From Zygnema cylindricum (taxonomy: Eukaryota > Streptophyta > Zygnematophyceae > Zygnematales > Zygnemataceae), in the NCBI GenBank assembly GCA_037447655.1, contig JBBHKE010001687.1, positions 259,901 through 323,900 of the forward strand: a DNA stretch of 64,000 bases. The letters run 5' to 3'. Numbering within the stretch: the stretch's first letter is position 1; each line of letters opens with the position of its first letter. The position numbers were made by a program, and so were the translations under genes. The notes under the pieces are model-generated. The model did not search any database, was not told the origin of the DNA, and saw only the letters and a program-made list of their open reading frames with translations. Positions 1 through 61,590 of this stretch are shown here, in pieces.

Positions 1-1430
1 TTAATAACTCGATAACAAAATAGGATAGCCAAAATGATTGTATTTTTATGTCTACAATAATGATTCGAATCATTTAATAAAGCTAACTATTGCGATAATG
101 CACCATTATTTCACTATATGTTAATATCCTACCTTGCCGGAAAAAATAAACAAACAATTTTATGACTGTAACAATTTGATATCTCGCTACGATAACAATC
201 ATATACCCACCAAGTTATTTCAACATGTATTATACATATGTATTGGATAATTTTTTTGTTTTCTAACATCATAACACTTCTTGCATCTCTATTTATTTTG
301 GTGAAATAAAAAGTAGTATTTTTTTGCTCAAAATGGTTCCACAACATGTCATTCAGACCACTCTTAGTATAGCATTTGGCTTCAACATTTTTTGTAGAGA
401 TACGTGGTTATTTTTCGATTTAAAAAACATTAAATGGCAAGATTAAACATCGAAAATGCTAACACTTAGCCTCGAAAATGAGCGATAAACTGGCGGTTTG
501 TCACATACGATGGCTCGATAATGAGATTTGATAACCATTGTCATGTTACCATATAATGTCAATATTATGATAAAAAAGATTATAAATACATTGTTGAAAG
601 TGAAGTTTTATTGCACTACATGCATCCCAAACTTTTATGTATCAACATAACCATACTTAAATAATGCTCATGAAAATAATGTGTGATATACGTAAAGATT
701 AGGTGTTGCGTAACGATAACCTCTACGAGACCACTATTTATTACGAATATAATTTATCATGCACTAGTATAGTAAATATGTTAAGTTGTCAAAGTTCACT
801 AAAGTGCACTATTTCGGAAAAAGTCCTCTCAAGTAGACTCTCCACGGAGGTAGTTGTTCCTACTGTTTCGTCCGTTTTTGCAAAAACTTGGCCAAGTGAA
901 ATCTTCCTAGTTTAAGGACCTCTATGCTAGGTAATTAGCAGAACGCTGATCGGGCGAATCCCACGACTTTGTTTTCTTTGTGTCCATAGTGAGGACAAAA
1001 AACTCCACCAAAGTGTATTATTTGGGCTTTAGCTTAAAAGAATGTTTCTCCATCGCCGTTTATTACGTTGTGGCTTCCAAAATATTGTTGCATATGTTTC
1101 AAACCATTTTTTAAATTTTATATGGCAAAGGCTTGAACACCTCTGTCTGAAAGGTATACGCAAAATTGTTTAACTTTGTTTGAAATTTTATCTCAACTTT
1201 AGCGAATTATTCGATGACTACTATTTATTCGATTTTTTTTCCATCAAGGCATATTTAGAAGGCGTTTTAGTGATTTACGAGGAAACATAAATAGATGTTA
1301 TTCAAAAACACTTTATTTTATGGTTTGATGTAGTGAAAAGGGTCAACATACAACGAAGGCGTTTGCGAATGGTTTGAAATTTAGTTATGATTCAATTTTT
1401 TTTTTGACTATCCTTTATTGCCTTGTGGCT
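1..1430. other. AT-rich stretch without a recognisable gene
   Basis: No convincing coding sequence on either strand; the short open frames have no domain signature. Roughly 440-670 resembles a dispersed repeat (R1) also present near 27.3, 44.5 and 45.0 kb. From about 1400 rightwards the sequence is the decayed 3' end of the gypsy element. Integrase for that element would be expected here on minus, but I cannot recognise it. Confidence 0.5.
440..670. repeat. Diverged copy of dispersed repeat R1
   Basis: This stretch shares the order of short blocks seen at 27470-27640 and 44540-44680: 'atgctaacacttagcct', then 'gataaccattgtcatg', then 'ttttattgcactacatgcat', then 'caacataaccata'. Similarity is patchy and by eye only, so this is the oldest-looking member. 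No terminal repeats or coding capacity were found, so the repeat class is unknown. Confidence 0.45.
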
Positions 1431-1479
1431 CACAATGGATCGTTGCCCACGTTTGAAAAGCACCTAAAATGGTTGAAAA

Positions 1480-1935
1480 AAGTTGAACGAATAAGCGGAA
1501 ACAAAGGGCAAGCTTCCCTGAAAGCTTATCGTTGGTCATCAACCAATGAAGGGGTTGATGGTCAGTTAGGAACGTGAATGGCTTGCCGTAAATATAATGT
1601 CGAAAATGGACAATACCCCATACCGCTGCGAGACATTCACCCTCGTAACTACTGTAATTCGATTCAGCTTGGTTATTGCTCCAGCTGGCTTATGCCACTA
1701 CGTATTCCTCTCCATTCAGCTCTCTTTGCGTTAAAATGGCTGCAATGCCAGGCTTCCCGAAGGTGGTTTGTAGGCAAAAGGGAAACTTGTGGTTATGAGG
1801 TCGAAGAATGGGAGCGCTGGAAAGGGCGGTTTTCAGTTTTTGAAACGCTTCTAATTGGGCGGGTCCCCTAACAAAAGGCACTTTCTTCTTGAGGAGGTCA
1901 TTGAGGGGAGAAGCAATTGTACTAAAATTTGGTAC
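1480..1935 (-). pseudogene. Ty3/gypsy RNase H remnant
   Basis: Following RT in the same orientation, 'SAPILRPHNHKFPFCLQTTF' and 'GIAAILTQ' correspond to the start of gypsy RNase H (the usual D-A-S is degraded to Q-T-T). After the stop at 1690, another frame gives 'ECLAAVWGIVHFRHYIYGK' and 'FTFLTDHQPLHWLM' (about 1650-1540), the E and D-H-x-A/P-L signatures of this domain. Similarity fades near 1490, so the tail is lost. It would degrade the RNA strand of the hybrid; this copy is inactive. Confidence 0.8.
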
Positions 1936-1939
1936 AAAT

Positions 1940-2748
1940 CGTCGGGAATAATTGGCTAGTCTAAGAAAGGCCCTCAAACTGGTGAGACCGGTAGGTGCCG
2001 GCAGCTTGGTAATTGCCTCTACTTTTGCTTCGAGAGGAGTGATGCCCTCGGCCGAGATAAAATGACCAAGGTAAGGCACTCCCTCGGTTCCAAAGGTACA
2101 TTTGGCCGGGTGACATTTCAGGCCGACTTTCTTTAATTCCGAGAGGACCCATTCGATGTGGCGGGCATGTTCCTCTACCGTTGCGGAAGCAATTATCAAG
2201 TTGTCTATATAACATCTCGCAAATTTGCATCCCCCAAGTACCGAATCCATGACATTTTGGAACACATGGCGTTTTTGAGTCCAAAAGGCATTACTGCCCA
2301 CTCCCATCTATCATCACTACCCTAAAAAGCCGTTTTATGGCGATCCTTTTCCTTAATCTCGATTTGATTAAACCCTTGACGTAAGTCAAGAATACTAAAA
2401 AATTTGGCTCCACCCACATGATCAAATATTTCCTCCGCGAGAGGCATGGGGTGTCGATCTTGTACTGTCCGAGCATTTAGCTCTCGGTACTCTCCACACA
2501 TCCTACACTCCGTAAAGTTCCCCTCCAAATATTTATTTCGGGGCATGACGGTGGTAGCGACGAAAGTAGAGTCCAACCGATAGATAAGTCCGACTTCTTC
2601 CAATTCAACACATCGTTTATCCACCATTTCTCATTTTGTTTCCGACAGGCGGTGGTCCGCTTGAAGATAGGCCGATCGTCTTCCTCATCAATCGACATTC
2701 TATATGTGGAATGACGTCCTATATCATTCATCGAGAAAGCAAAAGTGT
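1940..2748 (-). pseudogene. Ty3/gypsy reverse transcriptase (frameshifted)
   Basis: The N-terminal part reads 'MNDIGRHSTYRMSIDEEDD' (about 2731-2675), then 'EEVGLIYRLDSTF', and the palm motif 'FSILDLRQGFNQIEIKEKD' at about 2400-2345, which supplies the first catalytic Asp. After a frameshift near 2310 the frame continues with 'VFQNVMDSVL' and 'RCYIDNLIIAS', where the expected Y-x-D-D is Y-I-D-N, so the last catalytic Asp is lost. 'LKCHPAKCTFG', 'YLGHFIS' and 'NYSRRFVPNFS' follow, all classic Ty3/gypsy thumb and connection motifs. RT copies the element RNA into DNA in the particle. The stop positions and the altered catalytic box show it is dead. Confidence 0.9.
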
Positions 2749-3594
2749 CTATGTGACAAAAACCGTGTCACTAAGCAATTCAGGTTCCGAAGGGGTCAAA
2801 CTGGTACCGAATTTCCACTTCCGGTCCTCCAGGCTTTTAATGGTTAAAGCTTCCATGGCTTGAGCAAACGCCAATTGTTCATTGGCAATGAGATATTTGC
2901 CTAACTCGTACGATATTAGGGCTTGCTGAAGGCAATTCACCCAGTGGTGCCAGCTACGAGTCGGAAATGTAACTATCCAATGCGGTGCAGAACCGAGAAA
3001 CGGTAGAACTATGGATTGAACGGCAATATAGGCCGAAATTCCCCAAGACATATGACTGGGGTTGAGGAAATCATGGATAGAGATGTCTTTAACCGATTGT
3101 ACGTGGGAAGGGAAAAGAAAAAACTGAAATGGATTTCCTTTGAGACTATGAGAGGTGCGAGAGGAAGCATGACGTGAAGGTGCAGCCGTATTCCCCCCCC
3201 CAACTAGTTGCAAGGGGTGATTCTGTGCGTAGCGACCAGCTGGAAGGCCGAGACCTAAGACAAATGATAAAGATTGTGGGTCCATGACCCTACCCAACAA
3301 AGTAAAACGCTGTCTATCTGAAAGGCCGGGGGCTGCAGTAGTGCCTGGTATAAAATTCATAAGATGCTCCCGTTCTGTGGCAGTAGGCTCCACTAACTCT
3401 GTGGCAGTAGGCTCCACTAACTCTCCAGTGATATTATTTCGCAACATTCCTGGACGGTTATGAGAGTATGCATGTGAATTAGGATAAGACACTAAAGTAG
3501 GAAGTACCTTGAGTGGTTGACAGAGTACATTAATATTGTAAGTCGGAGGGTGGTCTATTTGGACACATGACTGGACTTGGTGAAAGGGAAGCAA
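2749..3594 (-). pseudogene. Open frame joining the methyltransferase C-terminus to the RT region
   Basis: A 281-codon frame is open without stops. Its first third is the end of the methyltransferase (motifs IX-X, see that entry). The remainder, about 3240-2749, is a hydrophobic/aromatic stretch ('HDFLNPSHMSWGISAY', 'WHHWVNCLQQALISYEL') ending with 'ALTIKSLEDRKWKFG'. It has no motif I recognise and probably links methyltransferase to RT or is a degenerate connection domain. Because one frame spans both parts, the methyltransferase was evidently expressed as part of the polyprotein rather than lying beside the element by chance. Confidence 0.6.
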
Positions 3595-4224
3595 AGCGAT
3601 CTTAATGTCTGTAGTGGGAGGTCTTACTAAAAATTAGCCTCACGAAGACGACCAACATCGATGAGGTAAGTCCATTTGGAACGAATGTGATGTGCAAGGG
3701 ACCCATGCCGAGCGGCATCGATAATTAGAGGGGGTCCAATTAGGTGTTTATGCGCTTATAGTCTGCCAAAACTGTAGGTCGTGGATCATTATAAGCGGCG
3801 ACATTCTCTAAAATGTATGCGACTAGCCTGGCCATGGTTTGAAGAAGATGAAAGACCCTCAAAAGCTCAAAAAACAATTTTGTTCGGGGATTAGGACCTT
3901 TGCCGGCCCAAGACATGCCTTGACATTCCCACCCCCCGAAAACAAGGTCTATCGGTCGGACATTTCGTAGATGATGGTTACAAAGGATGCGTATGTCTTG
4001 TGGGAGAGCTGGGTGCATGTGTAGAAATGCTAACTTGGGAAACAATTGTGGATATTGCGATCGAAAAGATTACATTGGTGTAACTGTGCCTTTTTAGCTA
4101 CTGCATCTATTTCTACCGCATAGTAGTGACGAATGAGGAGACCATTCTGTAAACATGCTAATTTTGAATTTCCAATCCCAAGGAATAGGCCTAAAAAAAC
4201 GACCCCGTCTGTATGAGGATTCAA
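3240..4224 (-). pseudogene. C5 cytosine DNA methyltransferase domain (DNMT3-like layout)
   Basis: Canonical C5-methyltransferase motifs appear in order on minus. Motif I, the SAM-binding loop, is 'VVFLGLFLGIGNSK' (about 4200-4155), followed by 'AVEIDAVAKKA'. Motif IV with the catalytic Cys is 'DLVFGGWECQGMS' (about 3955-3910); the usual Pro before Cys is replaced by Glu. 'NPRTKLFFEL' then resembles the GT/RLFFE segment of DNMT3-type enzymes. Motif VI 'YILENVAAY' is at about 3810-3780. A motif VIII-like 'ARHGSLAHHIRSKWTYL' is at about 3715-3665. Motifs IX-X end with 'EREHLMNFIPG' and 'SDRQRFTLLGRVMD' (about 3360-3270). Frameshifts near 4055 and 3740 and double stops near 3628 break it. The target-recognition region between VIII and IX is short. 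A 24-base unit is duplicated in tandem at about 3374-3425, giving the repeated ELVEPTAT. Confidence 0.85.
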
Positions 4225-4239
4225 GTGTACTGACTTTCA

Positions 4240-5239
4240 ATTGATAGGAAGGAAACTCGAAGGATCGGTTGCAACGGAAGGTACAGGAGAGATAGGTGTT
4301 GATGGTATAGATAATCTGGACTTATAAATATTTTCAAATGTGTGAGAATTGACAAGAAAACCGGGCTCCTCAAAGAGCTCGGGTAAGGGAGAAATATCTG
4401 GTATGATTTTTTCGGCCGAAAGGGAGTGGAAAATTTCCTCCCCAACGGAGTTCCCCAAAAATGCGGGGAGAGCCGTAGCCGCGTGAGCTATAATGGGCAA
4501 AGGTCGGCGGACTGAAATGAGAGGGAGGCAGATTTTGCACTCCGGAAAGTGTGTCGGTCGATAAGAGAATGTTTGGTCGTGCATGTCCACGCCACCACCA
4601 ATTCGGAATATACCGTCTTGACCTACCAAACACACATAGACGTTACATTTAGTGAGAAATGCTCTGACGATAATTTCAACGGACTCATTTTTCGGTTCCT
4701 TTCTGAAACCGAAAGATGAGCGGGTCTTTTGTGATTCCGAGGACCTGCTCCATGGTCTCGGCCGAAGTAAGAAGGCGGGTAGCTGTCGCCTGAAGCTTGT
4801 CTGCTGTCAGACCAAGCTTGAGCGCAAATCCAGTTCCGAGGATCATGGGTTTTGCCTCGGTGTCCATGAAAGGAAGAGTGGGGTGAACACCATTCACTGA
4901 GAATGATCTCCAAGAGCTATCAAGGAAACTGATATGGGGATCGAGATTACGACGCTCTTCCATAGTAACCGGTTGAACCGATGAGAGACTGCGGTTTAAC
5001 TGCAGAGCCCTCAAAGCGGCTGCTGCTGCGACCTCATCAACGAGGGGAAGGGCTTTCGGTACATCCTCCATCATCCCTGAAAGAATACTTAATCGCTCCT
5101 TCACCTGATGAGCCTCGTGAATAGTGCCATTGAATATGGTCAGTGCCTCCGCCGCGATGGTAGAGGCCGTTTCTAGAAGAGGAGGCCGAGGCTCTTTTGC
5201 AAATGAGAGTGGGACACACAAATTTTGTATTTTGCCCAC
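4240..5239 (-). pseudogene. Retropepsin-like protease segment of the gypsy element
   Basis: An Ala/Leu-rich helical stretch (5210-4990) is followed at about 4880-4850 by 'DTEAKPMILG', which matches the D-T-G-A active-site region of retroviral-type aspartic proteases in position and context, with Glu replacing the expected Gly. It is followed by a typical 'FALKLGLTADKL'. The frame stops near 4685. A second readable frame (4635-4237) contains a Gly-rich 'GIFRIGGGVD' and probably holds the distal half of the protease plus a linker to the methyltransferase. The Asp is present, but the substitution and stops make activity very unlikely. Protease identity is inferred from motif plus position between gag and RT. 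Confidence 0.6.
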
Positions 5240-6240
5240 TCAGTTATGGTCTGCTGAGCCCTTATCAAATGTAGCTAACCGTTGATGGACGGTGGAATCT
5301 CGATGGGTTCGTCCAGCCAACCACGGCATGTGGACAACGGTCCTAGCAATCCCAGTAAATTGGGGTTTCATTTCCGCCATGAAAGCTGCAAATTGCTCTT
5401 TCATCATGGCCGCCATTGTGGCTTCAAACTCGGCCTTCTCTCTCTCTACGAGAGATCTTAGGAGGAGCTTCCTCTTTGTCGGTCTCCTTAGGCAGAGTGA
5501 CTGGTTGCGCAGAACGGCCGAAATTTTGCCATTATTTATCTTATTTTGATAACTGAAATTGGGGTCCTTGATGTGGAACCGATAGACATAATGTCCCTTT
5601 TGGTGGCAATGAGTGCAAGCGACCGCCTTGTCAGGACACATGCGGGCATCGTGCTCGGTTTTCCACATCGGAAACACATTCGATTTCGGGGACTAACGGG
5701 TGGAGTTCCCATGGCTGGCGTCATCTGGGGCCTATTGGGAGGCCATGGGTTTCTAAGTGGAGGAGGAGATGGATTAGCCGGTTCCCTGTGAGGAGGTTTG
5801 GACCGCTCATGGATGTCCCACCCCGATTTCTGCATCTCATACTCTACCTCATATTGAGCCGCTTGCTCAAAGGTGAATTTCAGTCCATTCATCTGGCTGA
5901 GGTGGTTTTGGATAAACCTGGTTTTTGATAAACCTAGTTTTGGATAAACCTGTTTGATGGACCTGGAAACTCTTCCACAAATTTCTTGACAGCCTCGGAC
6001 TTGAGGTCCGGTAATGCCTCTCGCAGAGTTTCTATCGAGCTTGCAAGGCAGGAGCAGTTTCACCTGGCCTACGCTCGAAGTTTATCAACTCTTTCATGTG
6101 ATCCGGATTTTGCATTCGGTACTTTTCTTTGAAGCCATGTCGTAAAAGGGAGGATGTGCTGGTTGTGCCAAAGTTGGGCTGGCAAGGAACCTACGGGTGT
6201 GAAGAGTTGGAAAGGTTTCCTCCGGAAAGTCTTATTCAGT
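5240..6240 (-). pseudogene. gag of the methyltransferase gypsy element (frameshifted)
   Basis: The capsid-like part (about 6240-5880) contains 'KEKYRMQNPDHMKEL' followed by a run typical of retrotransposon gag, with a frameshift near 6060 and another near 5940, where a short tandem duplication ('tttggataaacctggtttttgat') disrupts the frame. A Pro-rich linker (about 5800-5720) leads to a zinc knuckle beginning CFRCGK, broken by a frameshift near 5650, and then a second CTHCHQKGHY cluster. A Glu/Met-rich helical stretch follows at about 5460-5340. The last readable frame stops at 5240. Gag would package the element RNA in virus-like particles. No single start codon can be trusted. Confidence 0.7.
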
Positions 6241-7254
6241 CCCCTCTAGGTATGACCTAGATGAAACCGAGGACAATGATGACGTGGATGTCAGACCAGA
6301 CCGCACTGACAACGATCAACGATTCGCAACCGGATCGGATGTGGTCAACGATTTGGGAAAATCCGAAAGATGTAACTGCGAATGATGATAAAATGTACCA
6401 CCTCGGGTGGACCCGGATTGATAAGGAAGGTTATCCCAATCCGTGTGCAAAAGACAAAGGGGAAAATCCTGACTACAATAGTGAAATGTTCTAAACGGCC
6501 TGACCGAGATGCAACACGTGTCACACCAATCCACACTCGTACAATCAGCTCACGCAGCCACTATCAAGATCATGTGGTCAGATCTATCAAAAAGTCTGAA
6601 AAAACCTCTACCCTGCGAACAAGGGGCAAGGCCGAAGAGCCAGATCTATAAACAAGCAGGCAGCTATCCAAGCACCTTTCGGTGCAGATCTAAAGCAACA
6701 CAATGAGAAAAAGGCTTATGTAGGGCCATCCATGGCCAGATCTAGAAAGCAATTCCACACCAGATAGTCACTAGAAAACTTCAAGGCCACTCAGGGCCAA
6801 ATAGCATGCAGGGAAAACATAAAAAATGCTAATGCTGAATCACAAAGGTTCTAATCAAAACTGATCCACACTGGTCCCCGAAACGAGTGTCCAAACTATA
6901 ACTGAATGCTCTTGCACTCGCAAGGCATCGACTACCTACAAACACTTTTAATACTGTGGTGAGTAGTAAAAGTGAACCGGACTATGCAAAGCTCGCGAAT
7001 GTGATCCGCTCCGAAATTCGCTCCGAGCAACGTCTCCAAAAGTGACCCTCTGCGAGACTCTCGGTAACGTGAAGATGTACACCGTGGAATGTCAGACGAC
7101 AAGTTGAAGGACAAAAGAAGGTGCCGGTAGAAGAAAAATAACAAATAAGGAACACAAATACGATATATAGGAAAAGTGCGTTAGAATAAAGTCAGTGGCT
7201 TCTCAAACTCCAGATATACAGCCAAACCTGTGACCACAATAATCTAAAGCCAGC

Positions 7255-7445
7255 AGCAAACCCTAATTCCACTTGAAAAACCCTAATTCCAACACCAAAC
7301 CCTAATTCCCGACAGCCAAAACTCAAAATTTGCAGCTAAGGAATAGAAGGATACCGACCTAAGGACTAAAATCAAAAGGAATAAGCCTTAAATTTGCTGC
7401 AACCCTAATTCTCCAGCCAAAACCCTAAATCTGCATCTAAATCCT
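7255..7445 (+). repeat. Cluster of AACCCTAA telobox-like motifs
   Basis: AACCCTAA occurs repeatedly (for example near 7258, 7280, 7302, 7402, 7423) in an irregularly spaced array, often as AAACCCTAATTCC. This is the plant-type telomere unit CCCTAAA in degenerate form. The spacing is not tandem, so it is more like a promoter telobox cluster or diverged leader repeat than true telomere DNA. Confidence 0.5.
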
Positions 7446-8569
7446 AATTTTGAAGATTTTCTCTAAATGTGCTGCCGAATTTATGTTTTACACTACAGCC
7501 AAGAAATAGTGTGGCAGCAGAATAAGAGACAAAGATTGAAAGAAAGAAATAGCGGAAAACTAAAAATATAATGTTTTTTATTTATATAAAATAAATTTTA
7601 TATTTTTAGGAGAATTTAGTTTTTTTTTTTAGTTTTACAGAAAATAATACTAAGCCTCGAGGTAGCCACTAGGCTCTCGGGTCTTCAACATACTCTTTAC
7701 AAGTGTTATATCATAATGAAAGCAACAAAGCAAAATAAACACTTCCAACCAAACCAAGAAATTCGGATTCGGTAAAAAGGGGCACTTTTACAAGACAACC
7801 GAAATGCCACACAATCAAATACACTGAAACAAACCGTCCAGCAATCCGGAGAACAACACAGCCCAATACAAGGTGCCACGCCTCAAGCCTCCACTCGACC
7901 AATCGCCAAAAAGACAAATTTGGAGTGAAACCTTTCGGACTTGGCCGAATCCGTGTGGATTAAAAACGAGGCAGAACACAATGAGAGAAAAACCTGTTTG
8001 CTAACTAGCATCTATTACTAGCTAACAAGAAGAAAATTAAATACTGGGCAATCGGTGGCAAGGAGGAAGCAAGAAAACAGCTCCACTGCCATGAGAAAAT
8101 TATTGTCCGAAAACTAAATTCTCTAAGTCTAAGAATTAGCCTAAGTAAGACTAAGCTAAGCCTAGCGCGAAACTAGCCTATGTCTAGTCTTCTTTACATG
8201 AATGAAACTACTTAAGATGTTGGCCATTAGGCAGCCAACATCGTTTGCGATACGTCTAACAAAATCCACAATCCAAGGGTAAAAACCCTTCCTATCTAAG
8301 GGTGTGCGTGAACCTACGTGGGTTCACGACTTAAATGCGCACCAATGAGAAAGCGCCAGCAAAACGCCCATCGTACATATCATTTGTACGTCGCCAAAGT
8401 CCACTTGAAGTGAAAAAGTACCAACGAAATCGAAGGTACAGGTGAAACCGAAAGTTCATAGGAAACGCCAGGTACAAATGAAATCCACAATCGTACTCCA
8501 AAATCGCCTACCTACGAAATGAAACGAAACAAAAGTACACACAAAATTATTACATATTCAATCAGACGT

Positions 8570-8750
8570 GTACGTGAATCGCGTACATGTCACAAATAAG
8601 TGAACCAGCGTGAAATTGCAAGTGCGAATGAAACTCATAAATGCGTGCCAAAATATCGTGTGTGCGAGAATGATATCATGCGCTGGTGCACAATATCGTG
8701 TGTGCGTGCGAAATATCGTGCGCATATGCAAAACATCGTGCCCGCGTGCA
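8570..8750 (+). repeat. Degenerate short tandem units (ATATCGTGTGTGCG type)
   Basis: The motif 'atatcgtg' followed by T/C/G-G-rich 6-10 bases recurs at about 8652, 8692, 8710 and 8730 with flanking 'gtgcg'. The units are imperfect and about 20-40 bases apart. They begin right where the adjacent copia element loses its reverse transcriptase, so this may be filler at the truncation breakpoint. Confidence 0.4.
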
Positions 8751-8789
8751 GCCGATACCATGGGGCATGACATTTGAGGCCAATTTTTC

Positions 8790-9877
8790 TCATTTGTTTG
8801 CATGTTCATGGATGTATGCTCGGCTCCCAAACACTTTCAGCTGAGAAATGGCTGGTCTGAATCCATGCCATTTCTCAAACGGAGTTGCATTCCCTAATGC
8901 AGATGTTGGACATCTATTGCGCAGGTACACTCCTGTGCATATTGCCTCCCCCCAAAATTTGGAGCTTGTTTGATGAGTGGCCATCATGCTGAGCGTCATT
9001 TTGTTAAGTGTGCGATTCATTCGTTCGGCGACACCATTCTGCTGAGGTGTGCCTAGAGCTGCTAGTTGATGTTCGATTCCTTCAGAGGTAAGGAAACTCT
9101 TAAACTCGGAGGATAGGTACTCCCCTCCATTATCGCTTCTCAAACCGATTATGGAATTTCCATGTTTCTTTCAGCCATAGCTTTGTATTGCTTGAAGCAT
9201 TTGAATACCTCACTTTTTTGCTTGAGTAGGTAGATGTGGGTCATCCTTGAGTAGTCGTCAATGGAAGGAACAACAAATCTCTTTCCACTGCAGGATTTGA
9301 CCTTGGTTGGTCCCCACACGTTTGAGTGAACAAGTTCAAGTGGCTGAGTAGCTCGTCTTCTTCCGTCTTGGGGAAAAGGGAGACGGTGCGATTTTCCCGA
9401 TTTGCAGCCACGACATGGATAATGTGAGTCAGTCACACTGTTGAGTCTTAGTTCATGAACAAGCTGTCCTTTGACTAGTTTTCTCATACCATTTGTATGC
9501 AAATGTCCCAGTGTGCGATGCCACAGCATTTGATTGTAGCTAGGCGTTTTGGAATCTTGTTCTGTCTTTATTGGCATTTCAGACTTCTCGACTAACATTT
9601 CCGGTTCCTCTCCATGTGGAGATTGTACATTAGGTGGATTCTCTCTACTTGATTTTGGGAGAACTGCGCTTGCGACAAGTGCGAGACCTCTGGGTTTTGG
9701 ATTGCACTTCAAAAAATAGGTTCTGTCTACCATTCGTTCACCTTCTGCAATTGTGACACCACCTTGCATGAGTTTGATTTTTCCATGCTTCTGCCAAACT
9801 GGAGTAATACCATTGTCCTCAGCTTGAGGAATAGAGTATAGATTTATTTTGAAGGAGGGAACATAGAGCACGTTCAT
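8790..9877 (-). pseudogene. copia integrase with pre-integrase domain, family A copy 1
   Basis: The 242-codon part (9877-9149) contains 'MLWHRTLGHLHTNGMRK' and 'CRGCKSGKSHRLPFP', forming the H-H-C-C zinc domain, then 'LVHSNVWGP' where the first catalytic Asp is replaced by Asn, and 'FVVPSIDDYSRMTHIYLL'. After a frameshift at about 9146 the second part (9143-8790) starts 'MRSDNGGEYLSSEF' with the second catalytic Asp and 'GTPQQNGVAERMNRTL' with the catalytic Glu, then 'FWGEAICTGVYLRNRCP' and 'LKVFGSRAYIHEH'. Truncated before the GIFVGY-type tail. Integrase inserts the cDNA; a D-to-N change plus frameshift make it inactive. Confidence 0.92.
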
Positions 9878-9889
9878 AATGGTTCGTGA

Positions 9890-10093
9890 TTAGATTCGGC
9901 CATCAACTAACGCCTCTATTTCGATGTCTCTTTTTCTTGTGGCATGTGCGCTGTGGTTGTCTCCCATGAAGATCTGCGATGGAGCGATTTCACGAAAGTT
10001 GGAAAACCACTCTAGCCTGAAACACATGAGCTCAGATGCACCAGTGTCCACCATCCAGTGGTCATTGTTGTTCGCGATGGAGGACGCCATCAC
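9890..10093 (-). pseudogene. copia aspartic protease, family A copy 1
   Basis: Short open segment with 'HWMVDTGASELMCF', the D-T-G-A catalytic signature of copia proteases, followed by 'FSNFREIAPSQIFMGDNHSA' as in other family members. The active-site triad is intact. It stops at 9890 after 'EALVDGRI', where a frameshift moves into the 'NVLYVPSFKINLYS' segment of the next entry, the normal C-terminal half of the copia protease. It would cleave the polyprotein. Confidence 0.88.
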
Positions 10094-10152
10094 TGCTTGT
10101 GAGGTGACGATCTCCTTCCCCTTTCCCTTCCCCTTTTTAAATTTTGTCTCGT

Positions 10153-10950
10153 CTATTTCCCATGTAATTTGTCATAGGAGTATTTTCGGCTGAGCGAGAT
10201 GAAATGACTCGCCTTATCGCTATTAAAACATTTTCTGTATGTTTTTCTGTCCCAATTCTGATCTCTCTTCTCTTTGTTTCTATGCTTGCTAGAAGCGTTT
10301 GCAGTGCTTTTGGCAAAAGAATCACGGCTCGTCATGATTTTGGTGTTGAACTCGTCTTTGAGGAGCGCCTCAACAACCTTATTCCACTTCCATGAGTTTA
10401 CATCCTTTTGATCCAGCCAGGTGAGAATCGGTTTGTACTCCACTGGGAGGGAGGACATGAGAAGAGTAATTTTTGTGTCGTTAGGAAGGGTGAAACCGAC
10501 GGGGTCGGCTTCGACCAGCAGATTAGCATAATAGGAGGTATAAGCCTCCATCAACATTTCGTCTTGATAGATGGTTGTCATTATCGTCTTTCCCAACTTG
10601 ATGCGTGCTGTCATCCTTGAAAGCTTGTGAGTGGTTTCTAAGGATAACCATATCTCGGCTGATGTCTTGTGTCTCGTTACATTTCTCAGTTGGTTGTCTA
10701 CTAATTCCTTTATCAGAATGTTCTTGCCACGGATTTCTCTCACATCACAATCGCTGATTTTCTTTTTCTTTGCATTTGTTGGGTTTGCAGCATCTACAGC
10801 AGTTGGACGTGTCTCAATTCTTAGGACGATTGCAAGACAAATTCTCTCCTCTAGAGCGGCCTCCGCCCTACTCTTCCATAATTGATAGCTGGCGCCCTCG
10901 AACTAGTCTAGTGAGCCAGGTGGGCCCGTAACCTGATACGCGGGGTCGGC
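10153..10950 (-). pseudogene. copia gag, family A copy 1
   Basis: The N-terminus is readable at about 10945-10860 ('FEGASYQLWKSRAEAALEE') with an in-frame stop, then passes into a 196-codon open frame starting 'MREIRGKNILIKELVDNQ' at 10743. Conserved copia gag features include 'TSAEIWLSLETTHKLS', 'LGKTIMTTIYQDEMLMEAY' and 'LPVEYKPILTWL'. The zinc knuckle at about 10230 is degraded to 'CFNSDKASHFISLSRKY' (first Cys only). Gag assembles particles; this copy has lost RNA-binding cysteines. The adjoining protease begins about 60 bases downstream in another frame. Confidence 0.85.
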
Positions 10951-12000: not shown

Positions 12001-13540
12001 ACTTCCACTTTCCCATTTTGTTTATTTAGGGAATGGCCCCGACCTAGGACGTGGGTATTGAGGCGACCTGAATGCACCACTTTTGCATGAAAAAAGCCTT
12101 TGAACATCACAAAAACCCTTTTCACACCCCACTAATAACGACATCCACCATTCCATTTCGTTTGTTAGGGGCATGTCCCCCCACTTGCGACGGGGTTGAG
12201 GATCCCATCAGTGCAAATGATTCACTCTCCCTACTGATTACATGGCACGTACACGGGTGTCGGTACTTCGTCAAATTTCAGGTTCTTGGGAACCCTGCGT
12301 GCACAACCTTGGGTACTTAACCAAATTTCGGGTGCATCCTTCTAATGAGAAGGGGGAAACCTTTACTCTTATTTCTTCCTTAAAGAAGACGTTGAAACCT
12401 AATCAAATACTTATTGAGAGCAAGAATAAGACAATCGTGTGGACTTTTTCAAGACGACCTCAAATTCTCACTTTCACTTGAAGTATGCCGTCTTTAGCTC
12501 TTCCAATACCATGACTTTGGATTTAATTTTTTCTTATTTAATATGATCCTTGTCGCAAAAACCAAAGATTTCTCCTCCGCAAAGGTGTGGTATCGGGGAA
12601 GTGGTATAAAGGGGAAGGGGTAAGAGAGAGAGGGGGGATTGTTCCGAAATCTTTAAAACAAAAAATTGAATCTCAGGAGATTGTAGTTGCAAGGCTACTC
12701 TACTACTTACAATACCTCGATCCGTTTTAAGTTGTAAGCAAAGGATTTATCTCCCCAAACATTGGGAATTGGTTAAACAACGTCGCGACATATGCTCTCG
12801 GAGACGTACGAGGCAGCTCTATGTTTAGGTGGGTAGTTTCCCAGGGAGGTAAAAAGAGTCGCTTCTAGCATGGATTCTTCCTTACAAGCGTCAGACATAA
12901 TCTTACATATGGTAGCTTTGCACCACCAACTTTTCATTCAAGCATAATTAACAATTAGGTGAATCAGTTGTTCCTCTTGTATTAAGTTGAATTAATATTT
13001 CGACACCGGTTCATCAGTAGTGTAAAACTAACCTGCCTCATGACAGTCAAATTCAACGCATGTTCCCTATTGGTGGGTGAACAATCCAACACTTGGGGAA
13101 TTTTTCTTCACAATGATAAGAAATGCCAAATTTCAATGGCCTCCCTCTGGCTCCTTTGTGTGTGGACATTTGTGTGAGAGGCGACAACCAGATCACAATG
13201 CCAACTACTCCGAGGTCGTAGGGATTTGAGAAAGGTAGAGCGAGTGTGGAGGTGCAACCTTTATAACATAATAAACGACCTCAAATAGGCGAAAACGTTT
13301 TCTTCACTTCGGGCAAACGCTTACCAAGCTTGGGGCAAACGCTTTCCATTCACTTTTTCTTCTCTTCTCATTTCCTCCCACACGTTATAAAAATGGGTCT
13401 AATCGCAGCGGACCGCAAATTGACATGACTAAAAAAATACCAACACTTTTGTTGACTTTGCGCCTCAATAAGTGATAATTGGATATTTCTAACTTTTAAA
13501 AGGCGCCCTCTGGGCCCATAACTTGTAGTTCAAATTTAAC
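12001..13540. other. No recognised gene
   Basis: 1.5 kb with scattered short open frames lacking domain motifs. Mixed composition. I see nothing I can name except weak resemblance, on minus towards 13540, to decayed copia reverse transcriptase downstream of the block described next. Confidence 0.4.
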
Positions 13541-41288: not shown

Positions 41289-41951
41289 TGTTGGAACATT
41301 GGGAGAATCGGCGGGTTTGGTCGATACAGTATTATTTTTGTTCGCATTGTATTATAGTTACGGTTCGCTTGGTTTTGGTTCGAAGTGACCTTTCAGTTCA
41401 CGTTTGGCTGATTTTTGTTACATTTGATTGATTACGTTTCAGTTCTATTTGCGGCATTATAGTTTCATCGGTGTCGTTTGGTCCTGTACGGTAGTGTAAT
41501 GTTTTAGTGCGGCTACTTTGTGTTAAGTGCTAGTTCCCTGTAAACCGTGAAGTTCCAGTTCTTCGTGTCTTGATTAGGCGTGGCGTGAAATGTTCCGCGC
41601 GCCAATGTGTTTTGTACGGCGCACGTTCACATGTGGACAACGACGTGTATTAGACAGATTCTTTGTGGGTTAGAATCTGGGCTTTTGTGGCAGTAAGTTG
41701 TCGGTGCCTTGGAAGGTATTTTAGGAACGACTTGAGGCAGTCTTACATTATCAGTGGCAATGATCAGAGTTAGTAATCTGAGTGAGTGAGTGAGGAAATA
41801 TGTTGTAAGTGAGAAAAGCTTCAGTGAAATATATTTATGTTTTGCTGAATTTCCGTGTAATCTATAAAATTGTGAATTGTATATTTTTATTTGCTTCCGC
41901 TGTGATCCGTGAGTGTATTTGTGTGTGTCAGATCGATCCTAATTTATAACA
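41289..41951 (+). repeat. 5' LTR of the gag-only element
   Basis: Starts TGTTGGAACATTGGG and ends ...ATTTATAACA. 663 bases. Carries 'gagtgagtgagtg' and a 'cttccgc' block near the 3' end, as also seen in the unrelated-looking TGTTAGG solo LTRs. Confidence 0.95.
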
Positions 41952-41953
41952 AG

Positions 41954-41965
41954 TGGTATCGGAGC
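41954..41965 (+). promoter_or_regulatory. Primer-binding site TGGTATCGGAGC
   Basis: Two bases after the 5' LTR. One base different from TGGTATCAGAGC, the initiator-tRNA-Met site used by many plant LTR elements. The same 12 bases occur in the chromovirus at 55995-56006. Confidence 0.85.
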
Positions 41966-42023
41966 AGGTTGTACTATTGAGTCAGAAGCCTAGTATCTCT
42001 TGATTGTGACCAGGGTCGCAGTT

Positions 42024-43301
42024 ATGGGCGGAAAGAAAAAGAAGTCTGCACCTGTGTTTTCTCCTGCACCGTCATTTGCTCCCACTCCGGAGCAAACTGA
42101 CACACCTGAGCCGAGTGAGAGAGGGTTTAGTGGAGTGCAGTTCGAGGAAAATAAGGATGTGAGAGTGTCCTTGTCTGAGGAGCAACTCGGAGTTCTTTTC
42201 GACGGCCTTGTTCGTACCTTTGATGAGCGGCTCTCAGCTGCTCGTCAAAAGGGCAAGATGCAAGTTCTTGATAATCCGGAACCAGATGATGGTGGTAGTG
42301 ATTCAGGAGGAGAAGCTGAAAAGAGGAGAAAAGAGAAATTGCTTAAGGGGAAGGCGAAAAGTGAGAAGGAAGAAAAGGTGGATGTCGGGGGTGAGGAGGC
42401 GAAGTTTCGCATGGCCGGCAAAGTCGTTCTATTCAATGGATCGAATTACGCAGTGTGGAAGAAGTATATCAAAGGAGAGTTAATGTTAAAAAATTTGTGG
42501 CCAATAGTTAATGGAGATGAGAGAGAACCGAAAGATTTTGAAGGAAAACAGTTATGGAAGACAAAAGACATCTACGCAACGAATGGATTGATGCAAAGTT
42601 GCCATGCATCAGTTTTGGATCACTTCCTTGCTTATGGAAGTGCTCATGAATGTTGGGTGGGAATCAAAAATCATTTTGAGAAAGGGGTAGAAGATAAGGG
42701 GCAATTTGTTTTCGAAGAGTTCATACAATTTAAATTTAGAGAGAAGGAGTCAATTGATGATACCGTTAAACGATTCAATATTATGGTAGAGCAATTAACT
42801 AGTCTTGGTCGAATGCTCGCGGAGGATCATAAACTACAAATATTCTTGAAGGGGCTTCCAAATTACCTCCGTACACCAAAAGAAATTATTCAGTCAAAGA
42901 GGAGAGCAACATACGAATTTGCTGTCAGTTATTTAAAAAGAGTGGACAAAACGTGGGAAAGAACGAGTAGAGGAGAAAATCTGTCCGATAGAAGTGGTAT
43001 ACCCGCCACTCTCAATAGTGCCACAAATGAGAATCCAACTTTGAATGCGATTAATGGTAGAGGAGGCGGTAGACCACCAAAAGGTAGAGGTGGCAGTGGA
43101 AGAGGGGGCAGAGGAGGAGCACAATTTCCTAGAGATTACGACGGCCATAATTGCGGTGATTACGACGAACAAATTGATCAGGATGTGGTATGTTTTAAAT
43201 GTCAGAGATCCGGACATTTCGCAGCAGAATGTCCAGACCGACAAAGACAGTGCTTTATCTATAATCGGTGGGGACACGTCAGAGCTCAATGTTTCGACTG
43301 A
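42024..43301 (+). CDS. copia-type gag polyprotein, 425 aa, intact
   Basis: First in-frame ATG is at 42024 ('MGGKKKKSAP'). N-terminal 120 residues are Pro/Ser then Lys/Glu-rich. The gag core starts 'KVVLFNGSNYAVWKKYIKGE' and contains 'FVFEEFIQFKFREKESIDD', 'VKRFNIMVEQLTSLGRML' and 'IFLKGLPNYL'. An Arg/Gly-rich stretch precedes a canonical zinc knuckle 'CFKCQRSGHFAAEC' and a second, degenerate one 'CFIYNRWGHVRAQC' (second Cys is Tyr). It would form particles and package RNA. Closely related to the gag at 60.5-61.25 kb (shared F/Y-E-E-x-I-x-F, E-S-I-D-D-x-V-K-R-F-N). Remarkably it has no stop in an otherwise broken landscape, suggesting selection for gag or recent activity. Confidence 0.93.
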   Translation: MGGKKKKSAPVFSPAPSFAPTPEQTDTPEPSERGFSGVQFEENKDVRVSLSEEQLGVLFDGLVRTFDERLSAARQKGKMQVLDNPEPDDGGSDSGGEAEKRRKEKLLKGKAKSEKEEKVDVGGEEAKFRMAGKVVLFNGSNYAVWKKYIKGELMLKNLWPIVNGDEREPKDFEGKQLWKTKDIYATNGLMQSCHASVLDHFLAYGSAHECWVGIKNHFEKGVEDKGQFVFEEFIQFKFREKESIDDTVKRFNIMVEQLTSLGRMLAEDHKLQIFLKGLPNYLRTPKEIIQSKRRATYEFAVSYLKRVDKTWERTSRGENLSDRSGIPATLNSATNENPTLNAINGRGGGRPPKGRGGSGRGGRGGAQFPRDYDGHNCGDYDEQIDQDVVCFKCQRSGHFAAECPDRQRQCFIYNRWGHVRAQCFD

Positions 43302-43748
43302 GGCGGAGACTATTCACAACAAGGAGGACGTGGCCGCCGTGGTCGTGGACTTGGCAGCGGTACAGGACGTGGAGGAAGACATGTTTATTTTGCAGGTCTA
43401 GAAGAGGAAGAAGAAAATGTTCGGATTTTCTAAATCTAACGTCTGTCTTGGCAAGCGACAGTTTGGGAGGGGGCTTGCTGGTTAATGTTGGAACGATTTA
43501 ATTTCCCAAAAAAAAAAACAAAAAAAAAAACCGAGGAAGATTGATGGAGAAGGGCGTCTGTGAAAAGGAGTGAAGAGGACGAAATTGAAATGAAAAAATT
43601 TGACAATTCAGTGCGGTACGATTTATCTGTACGAAAAAAGAAGCGGTTTACTTTTGACGAACAAAATTATTTTGTGCGACGTTACGTTTGAGAGGGGGCG
43701 ATCTTCATCGGTGGTGTGCAATCCCGCTTCTCCCAATAAGAGGGGGAT
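43302..43748 (+). other. Gag-only element, downstream interior to PPT
   Basis: A second readable frame continues Arg/Gly-rich gag-like sequence for about 100 bases past the stop ('GGDTSELNVSTEAETIHNK'), suggesting a lost frame. A poly-A-like stretch at 43508-43531 and then no coding signal. Ends with the purine run 'aataagagggggatt' (PPT) at about 43734-43748. Confidence 0.6.
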
Positions 43749-44410
43749 TGTTGGAATATTGGGAGAATCGGCGGGTTTGGTCGATACAATATTATTTTTG
43801 TTCGCATTGTATTATAGTTACGGTTCGCTTGGTTTTGGTTCAAAGTTACGTTTCAGTTTACGTTTGGCTGATTTTTGTTACATTTGATTGATTACGTTTC
43901 AGTTTTATTTGCGGCATTATAGTTTCATCGGTTTCGTTTGGTCCTGTACGGTAGTGTAATGTTATAGTGCGGCTACTTTGTGTTAAGTGCTAGTTCGCTG
44001 TAAAACGTGAAGTTCCAGTTCTTCGTGTCTTGATAGGCGTGGAGTGAAATGTTATGCGCGCCAATGTGTTTTGTACAGCGCACGTTCACATCTGGACAGC
44101 GACGTATATTGGACAAATTCTTAGTGGGCTAGAATATGGGCTTTTGTGACAGTAAGTTGTCGATGCCTTGGAAGGTATTTTAGGAACGACTTGAGGCAGT
44201 CTTACATTATCAGTGGCAGTGATCAGAGTTAGTAATCTGAGTGAGTGAGTGAGGAAATATGTTGTAAGTGAGAAAAGCTTCAGTGAAATATATTTATGTT
44301 TTGCTGAATTTCTGTGTAATCTATAAAATTGTGAATTGTATATTTTTATTTGCTTCCGCTGTGATCCGTGAGTGTATTTGTGTGTGTCAGATCGATCCTT
44401 ATTTATAACA
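43749..44410 (+). repeat. 3' LTR of the gag-only element
   Basis: 662 bases, starts TGTTGGAATATTGGG, ends ATTTATAACA. Followed by the second GTAAC. Confidence 0.95.
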
Positions 44411-56057: not shown

Positions 56058-57590
56058 ATGTTAGCGCAAGTTCTCAGGGAGTTAGAAAGCGTTAGGTTAC
56101 AGAACGCGCAGCTGAGCAACACCGTCGCAGCTTTGGAATCTCGTCTTGGTGAGCGCCCTCATGGAGGCATGGAGAAGGTTGTGCCTCTCCTATTTGTTCA
56201 TGCATGCCTATTGGGAGGGATGGGGTCAGCAGTGGGCATTATCATTATTATGGGAAGCATTCGCATTGGTGGGTTCTTTGCAGGACGCCGAGACCGGCCA
56301 TTCCGCGCAGCGGGCCCTTCCCTTGTGTTTCTCGGGCACGCTCGACAAGTGGAAAAAATGGCGTTTAGAACTCGGTATGGCCATTTCTAGTTTCGGGTAA
56401 TGCCGTTCGGGTTGACCAATGCGTTGGCGACTTTTATGCATCTGATGAACTCCATCTTTCAGCAATATCTGTATGCGTTTGTAATCGTCTTTCTAGACGA
56501 CATCTTGGTGTATAGCCTGACGCTGGAGGATCACATAAAGCACCTACGAACGATCCTACAAGTCCTTCAGGAAAATAAGTTGTACGCAAAGAGGAATAAA
56601 TGTGACTACTTGAAGGAGAAAATTGATTTTCTGGGCCATGTGGTGAGCCGAGACGGAATCGCAGTGGATCCGAACAATATGAGGGCAGTGAAAGAGTGGC
56701 CGCAGCCGTTGAATATTACGCAATTACAGAGCTTTTTGGGATTATGATCCTACTATCAACGTTTTGTTGAAGGTTTTGCAAAAATCGTTGCACCACTCAC
56801 GCAACTACTCAAGAATGACGTGCCTTACGAGTGGAAATCGGCGCAAGGGGCAGCTTTTAACACGCTAAAGGAGCAGTTGGTTACCGCCCATGTGTTAGCT
56901 GTTCCCGACCCGGACTTACCTTGGACGATAATTACAGACGCCAGCGATACAGATATTGGAGCGATCCTTATGCAGGATCAAGGAAAAGGCCTATAACCCA
57001 TTGCCTACGACAGTCAAAAACTAAAGGCAGCGGAGCTTAACTCGGCCACCCATGAAAAGGAGACGATTGCAATCATCAATGCGCTGGAGGTTTGGAAATG
57101 TTACGTTTAGGGGAAGCGGATCACAGTTATCATGGATCACCACGCTCTACAGTACCTGCAAACACAGCCGAAGTTGTCAAAGAAACAAGTGCAATGGATG
57201 ACGTTTCTTCAGACCTTCGGGCCGAAACTTGTCATTGAGTATAAGCCAGGCAAGACGAACCCACCGGATGCGCTTTCGAGAAGACACGGAGTCGCTGCTC
57301 CAGTGGCAGAGCAACGATCGCAAACATTGCAGGATGTAGACGTAAACTCTGTGAAAAAGAACACCGCAGCGTCAGACGCAGCGCAAGGTCCGAAACTGAG
57401 CGCAGTTACTAGTACGGTGCAAGTGGACAAGCAGTGGCTAAGTAGGATCAAGGCCGCATACGACGAGGACAAGGCAATCAAGGAACTGGTAAAACAGAAG
57501 GTATTAGTTCGAACCGCCAATGGTATGTGGCGATACAGACCAAGTAAGACAACTAGACTTTATGTTCTGACAAATCATGACTAATGTCAT
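56058..57590 (+). pseudogene. Chromovirus gag start fused to RT and RNase H
   Basis: Gag N-terminus from ATG 56058 ('MLAQVLRELESVRLQNAQLS', coiled coil) runs to about 56350. RT sequence then starts abruptly at 'MAFRTRYGHF' within the same open frame, so a deletion removed gag C-terminus, protease and RT fingers. After a stop at 56397: 'MPFGLTNALATFMHLMN', 'VIVFLDDILVYS' with intact F-L-D-D near 56489, 'FLGHVVSRDGI' and a stop at 56745. RNase H: 'ITDASDTDIGAILMQDQGKG' (about 56930), 'THEKETIAIINALEVWKCYV', 'MDHHALQYL' and 'YKPGKTNPPDALSRR'. A linker follows to 57584. Three or more in-frame stops. Confidence 0.9.
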
Positions 57591-58457
57591 TCGAAACTTA
57601 AAATGAGTCATGACGAGCTGCTTATTGGGCATTTCGGACGGGATAAAATAACTACACGTGTTGCTGAGGCGTATTACTGGCCGAACATGACTCGCGATAT
57701 TGCGGAGTATGTCCGGACATGTGACTCCTTTAATAGGAACAAATCAGAATCGGGACAACGAGGTCTGCTACAACCCCTCCCCATACCATCTGTTCTTTGG
57801 GAGGCGATCTTGATGGATTTCATCTTAGCTCTCCTGCTGACTAAGGAGGGCTATGACTCAATCTTCGTTGTCGTCGATTATTTGACGAAAATGGCCTATT
57901 TCCTACCCACGTCAACCACAGCCACTGCGCGAGATGTCGCTAACTTATTCTTTTGGGAGATATTCCGCCATCACGGACTTCCGAAGAGGATCGTCAGCGA
58001 TCGTGATCAAAAATTTGTGAACCACTTTTGGCAAAAAATATTTGAGCTGTGTGGCACGCGGTTGGCTGTGTCCACAGCTTACCACCCTCAAACTAATGGT
58101 CAAACTGAAAGGGTGAATTGGACTTTTGAAGAGGCGTTGTGGGCTTATGTCTCGGTGCACCATACAGATTGGGTGAACCATCTAACAGCGATTGAGGTGG
58201 CGTACAACAGTGCGGTGCACTCGTCAACGAATGCTACGCCATTCTCCCTCAATGGACGACAGCCCACTCTTCCACAAAACCTATTGGTAGCGGACTGCCC
58301 TACGCCGGCAACTCTAGATTTTGCCAAAACGTTGCAAGGGAACTTGGAAAAGGCGGCGAAGGCGCTCCAGCTAGCAAAGGATCGTCAAAAGTGGCAGGCC
58401 GACACTCACAGGAATGAAGCATGTTCAACGTGGGTGTTAAGGTTCGCCTTAATATGA
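57591..58457 (+). pseudogene. Chromovirus integrase core
   Basis: Open 284 codons from 57603. 'HFGRDKITTRVAEAYYWPNM' and 'YVRTCDSFNRNKS' form the HHCC domain with the second Cys changed to Phe. The catalytic D-D-35-E is visible: 'LMDFILALL' (first Asp), 'IVSDRDQKFVNHFWQ' (second Asp) and 'YHPQTNGQTERVNWTFE' (Glu). 'YNSAVHSSTNATPFSLNGRQ' is the usual gypsy tail motif. The frame stops at 58457 after 'STWVLRFALI', where a frameshift leads to the C-terminal part. Confidence 0.93.
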
Positions 58458-59336: not shown

Positions 59337-60480
59337 ATGGCGTCATCATCCTCCCCACCACCAAAGAGGAGAAGACTGGTACGTGTGGGGCAGGGAGATG
59401 TGCCCCGTCCCGATAGACTGTTGGTGGCGACGCAGGCCATGGTAGAGGTCTGACCGGAGGAGGGAGGTAGTGGAAGAGTTGATGTTAGAAGAGACAGCTA
59501 ATAGCGAGGCACCAGCGAAATAAAAATTAAGTGGAGGAGAGGGGTCGTAAAATTTGCAAGACCCCGAGTATAACCAACTCCGAGTGGGAGACCTGGAGGA
59601 TGAAGAAGATCACGAGCTCTCGGACGTTGAGGAGCTTGAACGAGAGCCGACACCTCCACCAATAGAAGAGGGTGCCTCATATCTAGAGGTGATGAGGGAC
59701 CCTAACATGGAGAGCACCGCCGACGAGCAGTCCTCGGAGAGCTTTGAGAAGAAGGCAAAGGCTCAGTACCCCAACAGGGATGAGGTATTCGTCCTTCGAC
59801 GGGAGAAAGGAGAAACGAAAGGAGAAAGTCAAAAAGAAGAAGAAATCCCCGACTACTTTTTTCCACTTCCTATTCATACTCAACACCAAGATTCGCCTTC
59901 AGCTTCGCCAAACGCTTTTATTGGGATCCTTCAGAGTGGCCGGCGGTATAGCGTACAGGAAAACCTGGAGATTCCCTCAACATTTCCTCCATGTGTCGTC
60001 GCATCCAACCTGGATTTTTATGAGGACGAATGACTTAGGGAAAAACCATAAACGCTATGTGCATTTGAACCCTCATGCCTTATCCTTTGTGGAGGTGGTA
60101 GAGGACCACTATCGGTACAGGGTGGACGTTCCAGGGGTGCTCTGCCAATATCACCATGGGATGTCCATCTTCACGACATCATCTCTAGGGCGCAAGTCAC
60201 ACCCGAGGTACGTGCGCTCAAGCAAGTAGGGAAGAACGCTCTGCAGCGGGCCCGCGCTGCCAAGAAACAAGTTTCCTTCAAATTAAGGAAGGTACCCCGG
60301 TGAGAACTAGCAGATGAAGTGGCGAAGGAAGCACAATAAATCGAAGAACCCGAAGCTCCCCTGATCCCGACATCCGAAGTACCTCCACCGGCGGCCATTC
60401 CACCACAACCCAAAGCACCAGAGGTTGCGCCGGGGAAGGTAAGGACCAAATTTGGGAGCGGATCACTGGGAGAAGCCTAG
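59337..60480 (+). pseudogene. Coding-like region upstream of copia gag (frameshifted, unknown function)
   Basis: Four consecutive coding-like stretches. (1) 59337-59451 'MASSSSPPPKRRRLVRVGQG', Ser/Pro with a KRRR basic run. (2) 59554-60033, very acidic: 'EDEEDHELSDVEELEREPTP'. (3) about 60045-60170 in another frame: 'RYVHLNPHALSFVEVVEDHY'. (4) 60160-60475: 'LHDIISRAQVTPEVRALKQV', 'RARAAKKQVSFKLRKVP' and a Pro-rich 'TSEVPPPAAIPPQPKAPEV'. Composition is far from random but no family is recognised. It may be an extended gag N-terminus or an extra ORF of the copia element. Confidence 0.5.
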
Positions 60481-61253: not shown

Positions 61254-61590
61254 GGAGCTTACAACTTTAGGGGATATAAGGGGAGAGGAGGTGGACATCG
61301 TGGACGAGGAGGCAGGTCACAGGGCCCAGGGAGAGGATCATATCAACGTGATACCTCTCAGATGACTTGTTACAATTGTAACTAGATTGGGCATGGCTCT
61401 TTTGAATGCACAGACAAAAGTAAACAGTGTAACTTTTGTCATAAATGCGGACACACCGGTCGCGGTTGTTATCAAAACAAGGGAAACAATCGCGGAGGGG
61501 GACAATTTAGAGGCGGAGGAAGTGGAGGAAGTGGAGGAAGTGGAAAAAGCTCATCAGGTAGAGGGGATTTTGTTGGGGATGGGCCAATGG
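61254..61590 (+). pseudogene. copia gag zinc-knuckle and Gly-rich tail (family C)
   Basis: After the TGA: Arg/Gly-rich 'GYKGRGGGHRGRGGRSQG', then 'CYNCN' interrupted by a stop and 'IGHGSFEC', the first knuckle, then 'CNFCHKCGHTGRGCY', the second, in the expected C-x2-C-x4-H-x4-C spacing. A Gly/Ser repeat follows ('GGGSGGSGGSGKSSSG'). Two stops. Confidence 0.8.

Follow-up and report, generated by a model that had tools for sequence, protein, structure and literature searches.

A Gypsy retrotransposon family in Zygnema cylindricum with a predicted DNMT3-class methyltransferase and a PHD finger in Pol

Introduction

That a retroelement should encode the mark by which it is itself silenced calls for explanation, and the question is raised by a stretch of Zygnema cylindricum DNA 64,000 nucleotides long (the window; contig JBBHKE010001687.1, positions 259,901 to 323,900 of the forward strand). 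The original prediction, made from the letters of the window alone, placed a DNMT3-like cytosine methyltransferase (MTase) between the protease and the reverse transcriptase (RT) of a Gypsy retrotransposon on the minus strand. It also pointed to a 2018 report on captured methyltransferases. This report exists, and an element of this kind appears in it for the charophyte Klebsormidium nitens, where KnitGypsy-Dnmt3 is a Dnmt3 captured into Gypsy elements and under purifying selection (Ka/Ks < 0.2; PMC5890265). In yeast, methylation by the K. nitens enzyme was not detected, a result that the authors call inconclusive (PMC5890265). In SymbioDIRS-Dnmt3 of dinoflagellates, as the same source describes it, Dnmt3 lies in Pol, in a frame shared with RT, and is CG-active in yeast. 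Another source states that some DNMT3 members are embedded in retrotransposons, and names LTR Copia and DIRS elements (PMC12344493).

Retroelement-borne Dnmt3 in Gypsy is an already published concept, and the Zygnema family is another case, differing in some parts. Because the 2018 report has Dnmt3 in a Gypsy Pol, the novelty of enzyme class and exact position is smaller than the prediction had hoped; the sections of the report used here give neither the position of the MTase inside Pol nor the copy number of the K. nitens element (PMC5890265).

A decayed element in the window

The minus strand of the window carries, from about 8772 to 1506, a decayed Gypsy LTR retrotransposon whose RNase H frame continues to 1408. 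In order, it comprises a 5' LTR remnant, a leader, gag with CCHC, protease, MTase, linker, RT and, last, the first part of RNase H:

8206..8772, minus strand: 5' LTR remnant (blastn, 76-83% to the 3' LTR end of a relative, L047)
6152..8206, minus strand: 5' leader and start of gag, decayed (blastn against L047, 72-79%)
5357..6151, minus strand: gag with CCHC remnant, in several frames (tblastn with the gag of the intact relative L031, 56-69%)
4336..5356, minus strand: aspartic protease region, in two frames (tblastn with the protease piece of L031, 57-58%)
3109..4335, minus strand: predicted DNMT3-class C5-methyltransferase, broken, in three frames with stops (extent taken from L031)
3911..3937, minus strand: motif IV, ECQ for PCQ, with the catalytic Cys retained (from the sequence)
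2660..3108, minus strand: conserved linker between MTase and RT, in two frames (tblastn, 60-77% to L031 and 52-59% to six loci)
1888..2630, minus strand: RT, in two frames (PF00078; 85-87% to L031)
1408..1887, minus strand: RNase H, truncated at its 3' end (PF17917/PF17919)

This order, with protease to 4336, then MTase and linker, RT at 2630-1888 and RNase H to 1408, bears out the predicted placing of the MTase. The domain is present where it had been put (3240-4224), with slightly wider limits (4335-3109) by comparison with L031, and the open frame reported at 3594-2749 is real but runs from 3633 to 2749, stop to stop.

Among the copies compared, L047 is the nearest to the window copy by both MTase and RT. 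The alignment of the two has 72-85% nucleotide identity and ends at 1506, within RNase H, and about 450 bases of L047 have no counterpart in the gag region of the window. Gag, protease, MTase and RT of the window copy are interrupted by stops or shifts of frame. No integrase of the matching kind was found in the rest of the left end of the window or in the 9.4 kb of contig beyond it, and the PHD finger is likewise missing from the window copy. Its MTase has a short in-frame tandem duplication (3423-3376, minus strand; ELVEPTAT twice) that is absent from five aligned relatives of clade A, the clade of the window.

An intact copy

The search for intact copies that the prediction proposed leads to L031 (C1344:85514-95911), in which the domain sits in the same place as in its relatives. 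Between 931-bp LTRs that are 100% identical, a single open frame of 2395 codons encodes gag, protease, MTase, RT, RNase H, integrase and a PHD finger. The zinc knuckle (CCHC gag) scores 20.5 bits, just below its cut-off, and the aspartic protease (Asp_protease_2) 20.1 bits (E 0.0011), also below. The integrase consists of H2C2 and rve (PF00665) and is of the DDE type. The protease-RT-RNase H-DDE integrase order and the direct LTRs identify L031 as a Gypsy element, as had been predicted. Inspection of the alignment ends of L031, the sole element examined in this respect, showed no target-site duplication.

An 18-nt stretch covering the end of the 5' LTR of L031 and what follows it (C1344:86444-86461) has an exact reverse complement in the LTR interior, where 37 control positions gave 9 at most. 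The complement suggests self-priming, a trait of Tf1-type elements. None was found in the window, L047 or L046, the LTR being only partly covered in the latter two.

Class of the methyltransferase

The window piece that carries motifs IV and VI (109 residues, 4069-3740) matches PF00145 at 18.7 bits (E 0.0013), below the Pfam cut-off of 22, TIGR00675 (dcm) at 19.3 bits (E 7e-4), far below its cut-off of 100.65, and PHROG DNA methyltransferases at E 6e-8 and 3e-7. All 18 of its PDB matches at E <= 1 are C5-MTases, and 17 of these are DNMT3A or 3C (E 0.004-0.2). Searched singly, the three other pieces (motif I, motif VIII, C-terminal) matched no MTase of the PDB, and the first and last of them matched none in Pfam either (the motif VIII piece was searched in the PDB only). 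We accept these three as MTase on the sole basis that same-genome relatives match them: the four window pieces are 54-87% identical to the six closest same-genome loci, with a best E per piece of 5e-16 to 5e-64. The PF00145 check proposed with the prediction, below cut-off for the window piece, is clear for the MTase of the intact relative L031 (1.4e-12), which also matches DNMT3A (1.6e-10).

A profile of ten open copies and the window piece, searched against solved structures, scores 71 bits (6e-19) with DNMT3A, up to 34 bits with bacterial enzymes (best 1.2e-7), 30 bits with DNMT2 and 29 bits (4e-6) with DRM2, and finds no DNMT1/CMT entry at E <= 0.01. Judged by these profile scores and not by a reference DNMT tree, assignment of the retroelement MTase to the DNMT3 class rather than to DNMT1, DRM, DNMT2 or bacterial enzymes is supported, in agreement with the predicted class. 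The ten aligned open copies have, in order, motif I, the motif IV Cys, an ENV-type motif VI (ENV or ENI) and a C-terminal motif that is conserved among them.

A chance motif is ruled out by the PHROG matches, by the same-genome matches of the pieces and by relatives with the identical order. We also rejected a phage or bacterial origin: phage C5-MTases match the 109-residue piece (best E 6e-8, among 20 of 215 records; identity below 60% in all 215), but the profile of open copies favours DNMT3A. Scans of viral contigs found no relative. Protein database searches gave no match, within length limits that leave out long polyproteins and with one of the queries possibly missing the conserved core.

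The family across the genome

The genome assembly comprises 352.8 Mb in 2689 contigs. A PF00145 profile search gives at least 123 scored matches in it, and searches with the MTase domain give at least 102 matches for clade A and at least 106 for clade B; the clade B list contains two loci split in two, and by eye the two lists share no place. Among the best 30 of the 123 PF00145 loci, 29 are retroelement MTases (6 of clade A, 23 of clade B). RT lies 403-505 bp downstream of the MTase in 23 of these 30, and six have no RT match within the 1.5-kb flank examined. The remaining locus, L007, matches neither clade's MTase query; its best structures are PDB 4fsx and two similar entries (99 bits; next DNMT1 entry 48.7 bits). 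We take 4fsx to be the maize chromomethylase ZMET2; L007 looks like an exon of a host chromomethylase-like gene, and its best matches suggest a host of the plant lineage.

Whether copies of the family lack the domain, a doubt raised with the prediction itself, was examined from the RT side, and the outcome leaves the prediction standing. Of the best 60 among the 150 RT matches listed, 33 have a listed MTase upstream, in the same orientation and no more than 4.5 kb away; the lists used for this count were the 102 clade A matches and 47 of the 123 PF00145 places picked by eye as clade A. The 10 most similar of the other 27, read directly, all have an MTase in place, which is only partial in L053, L057 and L060. 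In L055, L056 and L058 the N-terminal part of the MTase is 58-61% identical to L031 and the C-terminal part 77%, and this uneven divergence makes exchange or recombination between MTase subfamilies possible.

The architecture is abundant and its order is kept. Nine clade A stretches (L032-L036 and L045-L048) have the same domain order as L031 as far as each extends, with no gag match in L036 and no PHD match in L035 and L036. Five clade B stretches (L037, L038 and L041-L043) have the same order from the MTase onward, with identities of about 40% in the MTase and 51-53% in RT. Two other clade B loci have less: L040 has MTase and RT only, and L039 has an MTase with no RT match in 9.9 kb. The observed/expected CpG ratio is 0.80-0.95 in ten clade A loci, 0.79 in the window element and 0.62-0.63 in clade B L037, L038 and L041; GC is 0.43-0.50 in the ten clade A loci and 0.52-0.53 in the coding regions of those three clade B loci.

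Catalytic motif and PHD finger

The Pro-Cys of motif IV is near invariant in C5-MTases. Clade B has this dipeptide and clade A has Glu-Cys: among distinct loci that match the search pattern, motif IV is PCQG in 22 of 22 from clade B and ECQG in 13 of 13 from clade A, the window copy included (47 rows, of which 12 repeat a locus with a second stretch). Glu for Pro could lower or abolish catalysis, and we therefore claim MTase activity less strongly for clade A. As far as seen, ECQ apparently runs throughout the window's clade; it looks different from the published case and goes unmentioned in the prediction.

A PHD finger stands at the extreme end of the L031 frame (PF00628; 40.9 bits, 2e-10, above cut-off) and scores 40.1 bits in L046, also of clade A. 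In clade B it scores 17.9 bits (L037) and 23.7 bits (L038), both below the cut-off of 24, with zinc-ligand positions that align. One zinc-ligand position is changed in L034, one of five aligned clade A copies. The nearest solved relatives are the fingers of PHF12, KDM5 (Lid), BAZ2B, WSTF and PHF21A, and several of the PHF12, KDM5, BAZ2 and PHF21A fingers read H3 unmethylated at K4.

Selection, co-divergence and mutation traces

The MTase is under purifying selection in open copies. Its dN/dS is 0.13-0.37 in 12 close pairs, with 0.08-0.34 for RT in 8 close pairs, values that come from chosen copies with open MTase frames only and are biased towards selection. In 8 wider clade A pairs dS is saturated and MTase dN is 0.12-0.21; between such distant copies of clade A the MTase outpaces RT. 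MTase and RT co-diverge: their distances correlate with r 0.92 (29 rows, in which one locus occurs twice), and within clades with r 0.78 (A, 12 rows) and 0.73 (B, 17 rows), with 0 of 2000 permutations in all three cases.

Mutation traces in the window copy were scored where L047, L033 and L048 agree. There are 121 C>T/G>A changes, or 0.077 for each C/G site, and 66 T>C/A>G changes, or 0.039 for each A/T site. By context, C>T changes affect 32 of 322 CG, 29 of 291 CHG and 60 of 949 CHH sites; CG and CHG together (61/613) exceed CHH (Fisher p 0.011). L033 has an excess at CG (9/275, CHH 10/887, p 0.025), and L047 has no excess at CG (6/256) or CHG (5/227) over CHH (28/955). The pattern in the window copy fits methylation after insertion, by whatever enzyme.

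Comparison with known elements

Compared through its published description and not its sequence, KnitGypsy-Dnmt3 resembles the Zygnema family in being an LTR Gypsy element of a green-lineage host, in its Dnmt3-class MTase within the Pol frame, in having distinct copies and in purifying selection (PMC5890265). Its repeats are DIRS-like according to the Fig. 4 legend of that report, whereas L031 has plain LTRs of 931 bp; since these are plain and identical, we do not place the Zygnema family within KnitGypsy-Dnmt3 itself. The term 'PHD' is absent from the main text of PMC5890265, figures aside, whereas a PHD finger is present here. SymbioDIRS-Dnmt3 and SymbioLINE-Dnmt are also retrotransposon-borne DNMTs (PMC5890265), but they belong to tyrosine-recombinase DIRS or LINE elements, and the Zygnema family has a DDE integrase (PF00665).

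Host plant DNMT3, DRM and CMT share the C5-MTase domain, and DNMT3A is the nearest solved relative of the retroelement MTase; the Zygnema MTase differs in lying inside a retroelement Pol, and DRM2 scores far below DNMT3A. Chromoviruses (chromodomain Gypsy elements) carry a chromatin-reader domain at the integrase C-terminus. The Zygnema family resembles them in having a chromatin reader at the integrase end, but has a PHD finger for the chromodomain, and an MTase in addition. Plain LTRs, the PHD finger at the integrase end and the change from PCQ to ECQ in clade A look distinct in the Zygnema family.

Proposed function and alternatives

We read the window element as a decayed, 3'-truncated copy of a large Gypsy family whose Pol carries a predicted DNMT3-class MTase, long retained under selection, between protease and RT, as well as a PHD finger where the integrase ends, and which may use them for Pol-borne de novo methylation of cDNA or insertion and for PHD tethering. 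For this reading as a whole we would put the probability at about 0.45, somewhat short of even. Points that count against it are the Glu of motif IV in clade A, the yeast result with the K. nitens enzyme (inconclusive to its authors), the faster evolution of the MTase than of RT between distant clade A copies, the choice of open frames for dN/dS, the lack of a visible target-site duplication in L031, the one element looked at, and the reduced clade B loci L039 and L040. In the mechanism that we infer to be the most likely, Pol-borne methylation with PHD tethering, the MTase would be carried in the particle as part of Pol, beside RT, where the protease could free it, alone or fused to RT. It might then carry out de novo methylation of the fresh double-stranded cDNA or of the site where this inserts, whereby the new copy would enter nucleus and chromatin pre-marked as self or quiet, and the PHD finger may bind the H3 tail and tether the integrase complex. 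Function is here read from the domains by analogy. That the DNMT3-class writer and the PHD histone reader, joined from two ends of one Gypsy Pol, rebuild the ADD-MTase pair of animal DNMT3 and both select and mark the insertion site, with an unusual ECQ centre at work in the clade A writer, seems to us unlikely.

Several alternatives bear on what the MTase does. The clade A (ECQ) enzyme may no longer methylate and may be retained for binding nucleic acid or as a structural component of Pol, such as one that holds the RNA-cDNA complex. Glu beside the catalytic Cys in all 13 pattern-matching clade A loci, where all 22 of clade B have Pro, and the faster evolution of the MTase relative to RT point this way, but the aligned open copies retain the catalytic Cys, motif I, motif VI and the C-terminal motif, and the domain is under purifying selection, so that we consider this account doubtful. 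Self-silencing, in which the element marks its own insertions, does less harm to its host and both benefit, is somewhat less probable still. It agrees with the C>T excess at CG and CHG over CHH in the window copy, as in a methylated, silenced copy, but L047 lacks such an excess, any silenced element would be expected to show one, and the host chromomethylase-like enzyme (L007) could be the source.

We hold it quite improbable that the MTase protects cDNA from a host nuclease or deaminase and has no chromatin role. Such protection has been proposed for DIRS elements (PMC5890265) and agrees with the place of the MTase beside RT in Pol, but a PHD finger placed where the integrase ends suggests a link with chromatin. 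Next to no weight attaches to a host DNMT gene or pseudogene that adjoins, or was once inserted into, a single Gypsy copy: we found no point in its favour, and rejected it on copies across the genome that carry the MTase in register, the ten RT relatives read directly among them.

Two diverged clades with about 200 matches listed, a catalytic motif naturally split between them into PCQ and ECQ, and one or more very young copies occur together in one host. With both clades in one genome, methylation of insertions can be compared between the PCQ clade, the ECQ clade and MTase-free elements.

Other repeats in the window

Copia-like frames, judged by eye, adjoin the LTR remnant of the MTase-bearing element (about 8850-10902, minus strand). 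A second Gypsy-type element on the plus strand (56355-58457) has an RT 36% identical to that of L031, together with RNase H and integrase, and no MTase match nearby. Copia-type gag and Pol pieces lie at 41289-44410 and 60318-61985, both on the plus strand, and in the former a gag frame stands between 663-bp repeats that are 95.6% identical. Fragments of eukaryotic LSU rRNA (RF02543, 117 and 88 bits) occur in a TE-rich stretch at 12647-13129 on the minus strand.
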